Below are positions 14,499-18,855 of a stretch of DNA of 64,000 nt, piece by piece (the stretch's first letter is position 1; each line of letters begins with the position of its first letter). Both the position numbers and the translations under genes were made by a program. The notes beneath the pieces are model-generated. The model had not been told where the DNA came from, ran no database searches, and saw nothing but the letters and a program-made list of their open reading frames with translations. This DNA comes from a bacterium (GTDB taxonomy: Bacteria; Armatimonadota; Fimbriimonadia; Fimbriimonadales; Fimbriimonadaceae), in the NCBI GenBank assembly GCA_013823945.1, contig PNMZ01000008.1:1-64000 (forward strand), given 5' to 3'.

Positions 14499-15998
14499 CT
14501 AACCCTCGCCGTAAGTCGCACTCGGACGAGCCCGAAGCCGCGCCCACTCCCGCAACTCCGCAATATCCTCGCTCATCATCCGGCTGAGCGGCACCTGATT
14601 ATCCGCCTCGAACTTAATATCCTTAAATGTCACTTCCCGATCCTGGAAAAACGCCGCGTTCAAAGCCCCCACCACCAACTGTTCTATTTCCGCCCCGCTA
14701 AACCCATCCGTAATCGACGCGAGCTCCCCAATCTTGAACTTCTTGGGATCGCGTTTCCGCTTTTTCAAGTGAATACTGAAAATCTCCTCCCGCTCCTTCG
14801 TGTCCGGCAAATCAACAAAGAAAATCTCGTCAAATCGCCCTTTCCGCATCAATTCCGGTGGTAACTGCGCCACATTGTTCCCGGTTGCAATCAAGAAAAC
14901 AGGCTTCGTCTTCTCCTGCATCCATGTCAAAAAGGTCGAAAACACCCGCGCCGTCGTCCCGCTATCACTCACCCCACCATTCATCCCCGCAAAACCTTTC
15001 TCCAACTCATCTATCCACAAAATACAGGGCGACAAACTCTCCGCAATCGAAATCGCTCGCCGCATATTCTGCTCACTCTGCCCCACCAAGCTCCCAAAAA
15101 TTCTCCCGACATCCATCTTCAACATCGGCAACCCATAGGCACTGCTGACCGCCTTCGCCACAAGCGACTTTCCACAACCTTGAACCCCAATTATCAAAAT
15201 CCCCTTCGGATAAGGAATCCCAAAATCACGCGCCGCATCCGTAAAACTCTTGCTCCGCTTCTCCAACCAATCCTTGAGCAAATCATGCCCACCAACATCC
15301 TTCATTGAACTCGAACTCGGATAAAACTCAAGCATCCCCGTCTTCCGGACAATCTGCTTCTTCTCCTCAATAATCTTATCCACCGTAAGCTTCCGCTCTT
15401 CAACCAAACTCCGCGCCAATGCACTCTCGATCTCGTCCGCCGTCAAACCTTGCGCACTCCGGACAATCGACTCCCGCAATTCATCCGTAAGCGACATGTC
15501 AACACTCGGCGTGTCCACCATCGCCGTAATCACGTCCGTCAATTGCGTCTCAATGTCATCACGCTCCGGCAACGGATATTCCAAAACCGTCACGTCCTTC
15601 TCCAATTCCGTCGGCAAAGTCAACTGAGGGCTCAAAAGAATCAATGTCTGCGCTTTCCCTCGGAGCCGTGCTGCCAAATCTCGAAGCAAACGAACCACCC
15701 GCGTGTCCTTCATATAAGGGTGGAAATCCTTCAACAAAAACACCGTGAATTCCGCACTCTCATGAATCTGAGCCAACGCCTCCAATTCACCCGGCAAAGA
15801 ACTCGCCTTCACTGGCCCACTCGCTCTTCGCACCGCTGGTTGCATCCCCTGCGTCACGCTCCACGTATGCATCTGCCGGTTCAATCCCAGTGCAACATCC
15901 CGCACTGCCTGCTCAACCCTCCGCTCTTCCCAACTTGTAATGTAAAGAATCGGGTACTTCGCCCGCACTAAAACTTCAATCTCTTTCTTCGCATCCAT
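14499..15998 (-). CDS. AAA ATPase of the Ycf46 type
   Basis: A 499-residue ATPase resembling chloroplast/cyanobacterial Ycf46. Residues 1-215 are a divergent, non-ATPase N-terminal region starting with VRAKYPILYITSWEERRV, typical of the family. The AAA module follows: Walker A GVQGCGKS at 271-278, Walker B CILWIDELEKGF near 325, an Asn sensor (IATGNN) and a GRFDEIFFVDLP second region of homology. AAA proteins of this kind remodel other proteins; Ycf46 has been linked to carbon-supply regulation in cyanobacteria, but the role here is unknown. It heads a run of four - genes ending with lnt. Confidence 0.88.
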   Translation of the reverse strand: MDAKKEIEVLVRAKYPILYITSWEERRVEQAVRDVALGLNRQMHTWSVTQGMQPAVRRASGPVKASSLPGELEALAQIHESAEFTVFLLKDFHPYMKDTRVVRLLRDLAARLRGKAQTLILLSPQLTLPTELEKDVTVLEYPLPERDDIETQLTDVITAMVDTPSVDMSLTDELRESIVRSAQGLTADEIESALARSLVEERKLTVDKIIEEKKQIVRKTGMLEFYPSSSSMKDVGGHDLLKDWLEKRSKSFTDAARDFGIPYPKGILIIGVQGCGKSLVAKAVSSAYGLPMLKMDVGRIFGSLVGQSEQNMRRAISIAESLSPCILWIDELEKGFAGMNGGVSDSGTTARVFSTFLTWMQEKTKPVFLIATGNNVAQLPPELMRKGRFDEIFFVDLPDTKEREEIFSIHLKKRKRDPKKFKIGELASITDGFSGAEIEQLVVGALNAAFFQDREVTFKDIKFEADNQVPLSRMMSEDIAELREWARLRARPSATYGEG

Positions 15999-16073: not shown

Positions 16074-17876
16074 CTATAGAATAGCCTCTTGACCAGCGCA
16101 GTTCTCCTGAACCCGCCGCAGCAACTTGATCAGGAATCCCATCACGACTCGATATTCTTCGTCCTCTCTAATCTGAAGTTCCCCGCCTTGAAACTCATGC
16201 AAACCCAAACTGTCGTAATAGCGAAGCTCGGATACCGAACGAGAATGCAACGTCCGAATCCGCCACAAATTGATCCAACCCATAACGTTCCATGCCTCCG
16301 CCCGAAATCCTCCCAATACCAAAAGCCCACATGCCCATTCCATATTGAGATGAGCTTCTCGGCTCGAACCTCGCCAGTACGTAAGCTTTAATCCCTCAAT
16401 CGCAAAATCAACCCCTCGATTGACTTCACCACAACGTCCATATACAACTCCCATGAAAGAGAGCAAATTCGGCATCGTTCGCTCAAAATTAAAGTTCTTA
16501 CGCGCCGCATATGCTGCATCAACATAGCTCCGAGCCTCCCTGATGTCGCCAAAAATTAACTCCACAACTCCGTAATTTAACTGAGTAATGGCTCGATTAG
16601 TGCCATATAGAAAGGACGATTCGTTCGCAGATTTTTCCAGGAATTGATTGTAGATGTGCTTTGCTTCCGCAACTTGTCCCAAGTGCCACAAAAAGGCTGC
16701 CTCGGTGGTTCGCAACATTTCATACCGCTCATTTGATTCGATACGCTGTGCCACCACCTGCCCTGATCGAACCGCCGCCAACGCCTCATCCCACCGTCGA
16801 TGATGAAACAAACTAAAGGAATAAATCATCCAGGCGTTCGCCGCTTGGTTATCAGTCAATTCAAAAGAAAACAGTGACTGACTGATTTCAATAACCTTCT
16901 TCGAATCATATAGCGAGCTGTACGCCGAAACCCGGGCCACCTCAATCGCAACCCAACTTATACTTCCAATCTCCAAATGACCCTGAACTACCTCCAAAAT
17001 CTGCAAGTATTCCGACGGTGACGACTGCATGTAAAACTGAATCTCCGGTTTGACCACTAAGTCAACCAACATTGGGGCTGAACTACTTAAAGCACTCAAC
17101 AAAGCACCACCTAAGAGTTGCGAGTGCGTGACCTGAAACCCGCGATCACCTTGTCCGACCTCTTTCAGTTTTTTCCAATAACCCCCCAGCGACTTAAACA
17201 ACTCACCTTCCAAGTCAACATCGAGATCGCTCGCCGCCTGCCTCAATAGCCGAAATCCCTCGTCCAAACTTCTCAACGCATCATGCGCGTCCAAAAACCG
17301 TTCACATATTTCACGATCAAAGTCCCGGCGGCTACGCATCAGATTCCAAGCAAAGTCAATTGAATTCCAGTCAGAATTCTTCACCGCTGTGGCCGTTATC
17401 CGCCGCAAAGACTGACGACAGACCTCATCCCACCGAGCCAACGTCCCTTCAGTATCTAAGTCCGCAAATTCGCGCCAATCCTTAGAACCGATTGCATCCG
17501 CTGAGGCCATCAGAACCTCAAGCTGATAATCAAGATCAACTTCATCCAACGCGACGCGCAATCGCTTCTCTTCCTCCCAAACATCAACCGAGGAAGAAAT
17601 TCCCGATAAACGAACACTCAAACGATCAGATTCCAAAGCCCGACCAATCAAATTCTTCACCCTATTCAATGACACTCGTAGACGATTCGCAACCACTTCA
17701 TCCGGCTCCCCGGGCCAAAGCAAGCGAGCCATCTCTTCTCGGCTGATACTCGCCCCACGCAAAAATACTAGAAATATAACGACCCGACCCAAGCTCCTCA
17801 CGCTCACTGGCTTGGTCTGCCCCGTCACCAAAACCGCCGGATCACTCAAAATTTGAACCGAAATCTCCATCATCAC
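16074..17876 (-). CDS. SARP/BTAD-type regulator with TPR-like C-terminus
   Basis: A 600-residue protein. Residues 20-100 form an OmpR-like winged helix in SARP style (SISREEMARLLWPGEPDEV, then ANRLRVSLNRVKNLIG). Residues about 155-245 resemble the bacterial transcriptional activation domain (BTAD). The rest is TPR-like helices that usually sense or bind partners. Such proteins are activators that bind short direct repeats spaced about one helical turn apart; a perfect 11-bp tandem repeat lies 54 bases ahead of this gene. It is divergent from the PEP-CTERM gene at 17977. Its coding strand is less skewed in base use than its neighbours. Confidence 0.82.
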   Translation of the reverse strand: MMMEISVQILSDPAVLVTGQTKPVSVRSLGRVVIFLVFLRGASISREEMARLLWPGEPDEVVANRLRVSLNRVKNLIGRALESDRLSVRLSGISSSVDVWEEEKRLRVALDEVDLDYQLEVLMASADAIGSKDWREFADLDTEGTLARWDEVCRQSLRRITATAVKNSDWNSIDFAWNLMRSRRDFDREICERFLDAHDALRSLDEGFRLLRQAASDLDVDLEGELFKSLGGYWKKLKEVGQGDRGFQVTHSQLLGGALLSALSSSAPMLVDLVVKPEIQFYMQSSPSEYLQILEVVQGHLEIGSISWVAIEVARVSAYSSLYDSKKVIEISQSLFSFELTDNQAANAWMIYSFSLFHHRRWDEALAAVRSGQVVAQRIESNERYEMLRTTEAAFLWHLGQVAEAKHIYNQFLEKSANESSFLYGTNRAITQLNYGVVELIFGDIREARSYVDAAYAARKNFNFERTMPNLLSFMGVVYGRCGEVNRGVDFAIEGLKLTYWRGSSREAHLNMEWACGLLVLGGFRAEAWNVMGWINLWRIRTLHSRSVSELRYYDSLGLHEFQGGELQIREDEEYRVVMGFLIKLLRRVQENCAGQEAIL

Positions 17877-17930
17877 CAGTCTAAACCGTTCCGTACAACA
17901 AATGGCCCACTTTTTTCATCTGAAATGTTT

Positions 17931-17952
17931 TGTAATGGTCGTGTAATGGTCG
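17931..17952 (+). promoter_or_regulatory. Tandem 11-bp direct repeat, candidate SARP operator
   Basis: TGTAATGGTCG occurs twice without a gap (17931-17941 and 17942-17952). A weaker copy TGAAATG starts at 17921. The repeat lies between a SARP-like regulator and a divergent PEP-CTERM gene, ending 24 bases before the latter's ATG. SARP proteins are known to bind heptamer repeats with an 11-bp period. Confidence 0.6.
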
Positions 17953-17976
17953 ACTTGTTACCATGAACGAATTGCT

Positions 17977-18855
17977 ATGAAATTCGCCACCGCTTTCACA
18001 ACCATTGCCCTGCTTGCAATCACGACCATCTCATCCGCTCAATCCCTCACTTCCTATGTCGCAGTCGGGGCCGGAAATACTGGTTTCGAAAACTTCGGGA
18101 TCAACGCCTTCGCCTCGGATTTCAGTGGCATCGGTACTACCATTGTTGCCGCCGGGAATGAGACCTTCTCAGGAATTGATGGCAACGGTGATTCACAAAC
18201 GATGAGTTTTGCCGGAACCGCATTGGCAAGCGCCCAGTACGGCATCCTCCGAACATATGCGACGGGCAATGTTACAAACTCCTTTTACAACTCAAACAAC
18301 CCTTGGTACTACAACTCAGACACTGGCTCAGTGAACCACAACGGCACCCCCGACTACCTCATCTCATTTGGTCAAGCACAATACAACGATGTCTTCACCT
18401 ACACTAACATCGGGCCCGCGGTCACTGTCAATTTCTTCTATCAAATCACCGGAACCTTCAGTGGAGGAGCCGTTTACCATTCCATCCTAGTTGAGAATGA
18501 CGAAGACTTCGACAGCATCATCCTCACCCCCAACGACGGAAACACGATAAACCAAACCTTCGTCACCAAGAACTTCTCTATCGGCGATGGCATTCTGAAC
18601 CACTCCACCAATATCCTTAGCCAATTCGATCATCGCACCGAATTCTCACCCGATGGAACCAATATCTCTGGAGTCGCCGACTTTGACAGCACTGTCATCC
18701 TGACCGGAATGGTGCTCAAGGACGCAAACGGTGCCGTAGTCAACGGCTGGTCATTCAATAGCGGATCCGGAGCCGACTACGGCGCCGTTCCCGAACCCGC
18801 AACCATGACCATCCTCGCCCTCGCCGCCCTCATCGCCAAAAATCGAAAGAAATAA
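17977..18855 (+). CDS. PEP-CTERM protein
   Basis: A 292-residue exported protein. Residues 1-21 are a signal peptide (MKFATAFTTIALLAITTISSA). The C-terminus has VPEPATM followed by a hydrophobic run and a KNRKK end, the PEP-CTERM sorting signal recognised by exosortase in other bacteria. No exosortase gene is in the window. The body is beta-rich, Asn/Gly/Thr-rich and of unknown function. No ribosome-binding sequence is clear before the ATG. A five-codon frame (ATG at 17963) ends in ATGA across the start, possibly by chance. A good terminator follows. Confidence 0.88.
   Translation: MKFATAFTTIALLAITTISSAQSLTSYVAVGAGNTGFENFGINAFASDFSGIGTTIVAAGNETFSGIDGNGDSQTMSFAGTALASAQYGILRTYATGNVTNSFYNSNNPWYYNSDTGSVNHNGTPDYLISFGQAQYNDVFTYTNIGPAVTVNFFYQITGTFSGGAVYHSILVENDEDFDSIILTPNDGNTINQTFVTKNFSIGDGILNHSTNILSQFDHRTEFSPDGTNISGVADFDSTVILTGMVLKDANGAVVNGWSFNSGSGADYGAVPEPATMTILALAALIAKNRKK

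Follow-up and report, generated by a model that had tools for sequence, protein, structure and literature searches.

A conserved 11-bp tandem repeat as the probable site of a SARP-type activator at a PEP-CTERM gene promoter in a member of the Armatimonadota

The closest described counterpart of the locus reported here is AfsR with the afs box of the afsS promoter in Streptomyces coelicolor (PMC10936776; PDB 8HVR, 8JKE, 8K60). The afs box spans positions -40 to -19, with its centre at -29.5, and in SARP promoters generally the repeats lie 11 or 22 bp apart at -35, with 8 bp between the 3' repeat and the -10 element (PMC10936776). Residue R92 of AfsR contacts T-38 and the matching T-27, alteration of that T preventing binding, and R87 makes a backbone contact (PMC10936776). 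EmbR of Mycobacterium tuberculosis (PDB 2FEZ, 2FF4) has the same SARP module fold as the regulator described below (P0001), but it carries a C-terminal FHA domain in place of the TPR part and its targets differ.

GSU1771 of Geobacter sulfurreducens belongs to the SARP family and regulates biofilm and extracellular electron transfer; the exosortase gene epsH changes in its mutant (PMC10599522, PMC12325454). Like P0001 it is a SARP-type regulator outside the Actinobacteria, whereas it has an N-terminal receiver domain, no described box of the TGTAATG type and, as far as PMC10599522 and PMC12325454 state, no adjacent PEP-CTERM gene. Dedicated regulation of PEP-CTERM genes, as proposed here for P0001, is known from PrsK/PrsR and RpoN (PMC9850573), although that system combines a sigma-54 promoter (-24/-12) with a Fis-type response regulator, and the present one a -10-type promoter with a SARP-type protein.

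Here, we analysed a 64-kb stretch of DNA (the window), at the beginning of contig C8 in the 3.16-Mb genome (19 contigs) of a member of the Fimbriimonadaceae (Armatimonadota), in which a regulator gene and a PEP-CTERM gene diverge from either side of a 22-bp tandem repeat. Judging from the DNA and the proteins it encodes, this box is likely to be an operator for the divergently encoded SARP-type activator, placed at the promoter of its PEP-CTERM target. P0001 shares with AfsR the winged helix, the BTAD module and a C-terminal TPR part, and differs from it in the lack of a NOD/ATPase domain separating BTAD from TPR and in its host, a member of the Armatimonadota; the box differs from the afs box in its repeat, TGTAATG, and in preceding a PEP-CTERM gene rather than an antibiotic regulator gene.

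The box and the promoter of the PEP-CTERM gene

The box occupies positions 17931-17952 of the forward strand and consists of two perfect 11-bp direct repeats of TGTAATGGTCG, the full 22 bp reading TGTAATGGTCGTGTAATGGTCG; its heptamers lie at 17931-17937 and 17942-17948. It is intergenic, between the start of the divergent regulator gene (about 17870-17876) and that of the PEP-CTERM ORF at 17977. An exact head-to-tail 11-bp repeat between these two genes is what the sequence-only reading had described, and it is indeed there; of the interval 17921-17952 given for it, the end is right and the first 10 nt lie outside the repeat. No other perfect 11-bp tandem duplication exists in the 64-kb window, where 0.017 would be expected under a first-order Markov model, and no further copy of the box was found in the window even with three mismatches allowed.

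The proposed target, P0002 (17977-18855, forward strand), encodes a protein of 292 amino acids with a signal peptide and a C-terminus of the form VPEPATM...RKK, in which the PEP motif, hydrophobic stretch and basic end expected of PEP-CTERM proteins are present (VPEPATMTILALAALIAKNRKK). Its PEP-CTERM score was 22.0 bits in the genome search, above the Pfam cut-off, and 19.1 bits with hmmscan, slightly below it. The same genome encodes an exosortase (C1:51720-52475, 144.5 bits to PF09721) and about 55 PEP-CTERM genes above the Pfam cut-off.

Downstream of the box, a -10-like hexamer, TACCAT (17959-17964, forward strand), ends 16 nt after heptamer 2, and the transcription start of P0002 is predicted at about 17971. 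The same distance holds in all 12 promoters compared, each with an xAxxxT hexamer ending exactly 16 nt after heptamer 2 (TACCAT, TAGAAT, CATCAT, TACGAT, TAAACT, CATAGT, TATATT, CACACT and CATATT were seen); the search pattern imposed only the last T of the hexamer, and the A at position 2, also present in 12/12, was not imposed. If the hexamer is taken as -12 to -7, which is an assumption, the box spans -40 to -19. The arrangement thus resembles that of the afs box, with two 11-bp direct repeats at the same positions, a weak -10 element and no good -35 element. It also follows the general geometry of SARP promoters, the heptamers being 11 bp apart and separated from the -10-like hexamer by 10 nt, a figure whose two-base difference from the described 8 bp depends on how the repeat is framed.

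The divergent regulator

P0001 (16074-17876, reverse strand; 600 amino acids) starts at GTG 17876 or, as in the closest relative (G006), at ATG 17870. Profile, fold and model divide it into a winged helix (residues ~1-97), BTAD-type helices (~98-246) and a TPR superhelix (~247-566). By itself the P0001 sequence matches only TPR models in Pfam, the Pfam BTAD match being below threshold. Among the 13 members of the regulator family, Trans_reg_C matches in six, identifying the OmpR-type winged helix of SARP proteins, and BTAD matches in four, P0001 not among them. A search of the PDB with the full-family profile matches AfsR over positions 8-251 (E 1.3e-6). In profile comparisons of the DNA-binding domain, AfsR was matched and OmpR-type domains ranked next. 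Named relatives of P0001, four of which were found by a contig profile search with close alignment, come from Fimbriimonadaceae and other Armatimonadetes bins.

Structure models agree with the family profile. The AlphaFold2 model of the whole protein had a pLDDT of 90.9; since fold searches with it returned mostly TPR proteins, residues 1-246 (the SARP module) were folded separately, reaching a pLDDT of 94.3. Foldseek searches with this part gave AfsR and EmbR as the only matches under an E-value of 1e-3. With VIA-align, whose scores call for caution with helical repeats, AfsR obtained Z 13.7 (rmsd 4.5 over 235 residues) and EmbR Z 11.6, the next rows, unrelated and helical, being at 9.0; the AfsR match still spans the entire winged helix and BTAD. 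Fold and family profile therefore both place a BTAD directly after the winged helix, and the label "SARP/BTAD-like" of the sequence-only reading is borne out by them rather than by a Pfam match of P0001 itself. The NOD/STAND ATPase that large SARPs of the AfsR type carry between the SARP module and the TPR part is missing from P0001: no NB-ARC/AAA match was found with Pfam, and the TPR superhelix follows the SARP module directly.

The residues that read the afs box have counterparts here. In the HMMER alignment, AfsR R92 aligns with R72 of P0001 and AfsR R87 with R67; all 15 aligned domains have R67, and most have R72. T stands at the third position of 11 of 12 first heptamers and of equally many second heptamers (11 of 12), so that, as in AfsR, a key T at the third repeat position would face the aligned arginine, a pattern that is consistent with an AfsR-like contact as far as the alignment indicates.

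An AAA ATPase gene (14499-15998, reverse strand) adjoins the regulator gene in the window and may belong to the locus, since its homologue in G003 is divergent from a boxed PEP-CTERM gene. The regulator gene of G006 is split into two overlapping frames (~residues 1-146 and 144-592; L050, G006:C1:166822-168593), which could reflect a frameshift, a sequencing error or a pseudogene; the box and the PEP-CTERM gene are kept in this genome despite the split.

Occurrence of the box in relatives and in the genome

Eight other genomes (G002, G003, G005, G006, G007, G008, G010 and G029) have a regulator/PEP-CTERM locus with the box, which precedes each PEP-CTERM gene adjoining the regulator gene or one gene away from it. 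The sequence-only reading had counted absence of the repeat from orthologous loci as evidence against its proposal; on examination, the repeat proved to be kept in these eight genomes. Across several genera the common pattern is two NSWAAYG heptamers 11 bp apart (variants TGTAATG, GCTAATG, TCTAATG, CGTAATG, TGAAATG, TGAAACG and TGTAACG), separated by spacer letters that drift. Heptamer 1 begins with TG in the clade of P0001 and with GC or TC in the clade of G003, G005 and G007. The close pair G003 (GCTAATG-GTGA-TGTAATG-GTTGCCAGTG-CATATT) and G005 (GCTAATG-ATGA-TGTAATG-ATACGGAAAG-CATAGT) illustrates this conservation: the heptamers survive, and the letters between them and between box and -10 element differ. 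As this arrangement recurs in related bacteria, the box is very probably the landing site of the regulator and an on-switch of the neighbouring PEP-CTERM gene.

A script found the degenerate pattern in 12 of 14 upstream regions of SARP/PEP-CTERM loci; the two exceptions (G008, G029) do have the box, but there the mechanical ORF call began inside or upstream of it. Dinucleotide shuffles of these regions gave 0.001 on average, a figure that overstates the significance because the pattern was derived from the same promoters in which it was then counted. Less biased is the count of TGTAATG-N4-TGTAATG, which had been fixed before the relatives were examined; 291 phylum genomes contain 16 occurrences of it and two of a reversed control pattern. 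Many of these sites sit directly before PEP-CTERM genes, several of them in unrelated loci (G003, G010 C56, G051, G168). In four of the relatives (G003, G005, G006 and G007; L052, L053, L054 and L050), two tandem paralogues of the P0002 family each have their own box; the window has a single gene of this family. A site in G012 (C2:811669; L065:1500-1533) has three consecutive CTAATG heptamers with 11-bp spacing and could bind three protomers.

When the flanks of 30 pattern matches were scanned with the SARP profile, a SARP-type gene was found next to the box or within its gene run in G051, G033, G023, G067 and G069, whose boxes had been located by DNA pattern alone, and 3.8 kb away in G005; for several matches in other genomes, no SARP lies within 7 kb. 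In G031, whose SARP is 19% identical to P0001, TCTAATG-CCTA-TCTAATG precedes the PEP-CTERM neighbour; the box candidate of G013 points away from its PEP-CTERM gene. In the G067 and G069 runs (L225, L226), from another family of the order, one or two boxes accompany a PEP-CTERM gene, a prepilin-like gene and a gene for a SARP-type protein of 1132-1161 amino acids.

Within its own 3.16-Mb genome the box is nearly unique. The pair TGTAATG-N4-TGTAATG, which the sequence-only reading had suggested looking for upstream of other PEP-CTERM genes, occurs twice; P0002 is the only one of 59 PEP-CTERM ORFs to carry the box. We further scored, on both strands, about 0.39 Mb around PEP-CTERM and SARP genes with a matrix built from twelve SARP-linked sites; the window site (in the matrix) obtained 35.1, C4:187638 (not in the matrix) 32.2 and the next best place 19.0. 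A general PEP-CTERM promoter function was rejected on the 1/59 count. With two strong genomic sites and a single boxed PEP-CTERM gene, the box would mark a small regulon, consisting of P0002 and perhaps also the lipoprotein gene at C4:187638. When two mismatches were allowed, a search of the whole genome yielded one further site, C2:300177, which lies inside a potassium-transporter-like ORF and was taken as a chance match.

The second strong box (G000:C4:187638-187671; L001:1501-1534) precedes a lipoprotein gene with beta-propeller-like repeats, and its predicted transcription start falls on the lipoprotein ATG, implying a leaderless message. No SARP-type gene was found within about 7 kb of it, and a divergently oriented PEP-CTERM gene is about 0.3 kb away. 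No boxes of this type were found near the SARP paralogues of the genome (C5, C2:404k, C2:9k), and the SARP-profile scan detected no SARP-type gene at those PEP-CTERM loci of the genome that had not been selected for SARP; the overlapping loci L161/L198 had been chosen for a SARP-like match and so stand outside that comparison.

Alternative readings, proposed mechanism and significance

Geometry alone does not name the binding protein, because OmpR/PhoB-type regulators share it. Pho boxes are likewise direct repeats of heptamers spaced by 11 bp, one turn apart, and they replace the -35 element. The DNA-binding domain of PhoB is related to that of P0001. Tandem binding of PhoB to its repeats has been described (PMC3348028). 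PhoB is a response regulator with a receiver domain, unlike P0001, and the Pho repeat differs in sequence. The box might thus be Pho-box-like and belong to a response regulator of the PhoB/OmpR type, the SARP-type gene being there incidentally; this would also fit the OmpR-type domains that rank next in the sequence matches of the DNA-binding domain of P0001. We consider such a site unlikely. A Pho regulon would have the same box before phosphate-starvation genes, of which one was examined, a PstS-like gene scoring below the family cut-off, and its locus is without the box. The genome, moreover, has only two strong sites, and across genera the box accompanies SARP-type genes that share little identity with one another. 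In keeping with this, the congener G001, in which the P0001 orthologue is absent, has a PEP-CTERM homologue (48% identical) without the box.

A second alternative accepts P0001 as the binding protein and has it repress, or has the box serve mainly for autoregulation of the divergent regulator gene. Only about 55-60 bp separate the box from the start of the regulator gene, and self-control is common among divergent regulators. It seems an improbable account all the same, given the fixed distance from box to -10 element in the PEP-CTERM direction and the boxes before the second genes of the tandem PEP-CTERM pairs in G003, G005, G006 and G007, away from the regulator start; for both reasons an activator that replaces the -35 element fits better. 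That the box arose by chance or by recent tandem duplication and has no function, short perfect tandem repeats being known to occur, is hardly credible in view of its conservation across genera with drifting spacers at orthologous loci, the fixed -10 spacing and the enrichment over the reversed control pattern.

Under the favoured reading, an operator for a SARP-type activator, each 11-bp repeat would be occupied by one P0001 winged-helix domain, the two lying head to tail along one face of the helix. Bound at about -40 to -19, where a -35 element would otherwise be, the protein would bring RNA polymerase to TACCAT, the weak -10 element, and thereby allow transcription of the PEP-CTERM gene. 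P0001 activity is probably set by its C-terminal TPR superhelix, acting as the sensor. Structurally, this superhelix (residues 247-566) comes closest to Rap, NprR and MalT domain III (Z 21-24), with other TPR proteins ranking closely behind, and for that reason we claim no ligand class for this half. As the nearest folds include Rap, NprR and other peptide-binding TPR proteins of quorum sensing, the TPR half might conceivably be a peptide receptor, whereby cell-cell signalling would switch on a surface PEP-CTERM protein through a SARP-type activator; we hold this to be distinctly unlikely.

The sequence-only reading had also proposed a link between a SARP-type protein and surface-protein control outside the Actinobacteria. 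The linkage of SARP-type and PEP-CTERM genes is supported, whereas its position outside the Actinobacteria is less new, GSU1771 of Geobacter sulfurreducens having already been described. In the literature searched, no paper on the regulation of PEP-CTERM genes in Armatimonadota was found, and what is new is the combination of a SARP-plus-TPR layout without NOD, a TGTAATG-type box and a PEP-CTERM target. The locus offers a testable trio of regulator, site and target in Armatimonadota and suggests that transcription starts of the SARP/afs-box kind occur outside the Actinobacteria, with the same geometry, for exosortase-sorted surface proteins. The promoter code NSWAAYG-N4-NSWAAYG-N10-xAxxxT could reveal, from sequence, the targets of many unstudied SARP-type proteins of the Armatimonadota.
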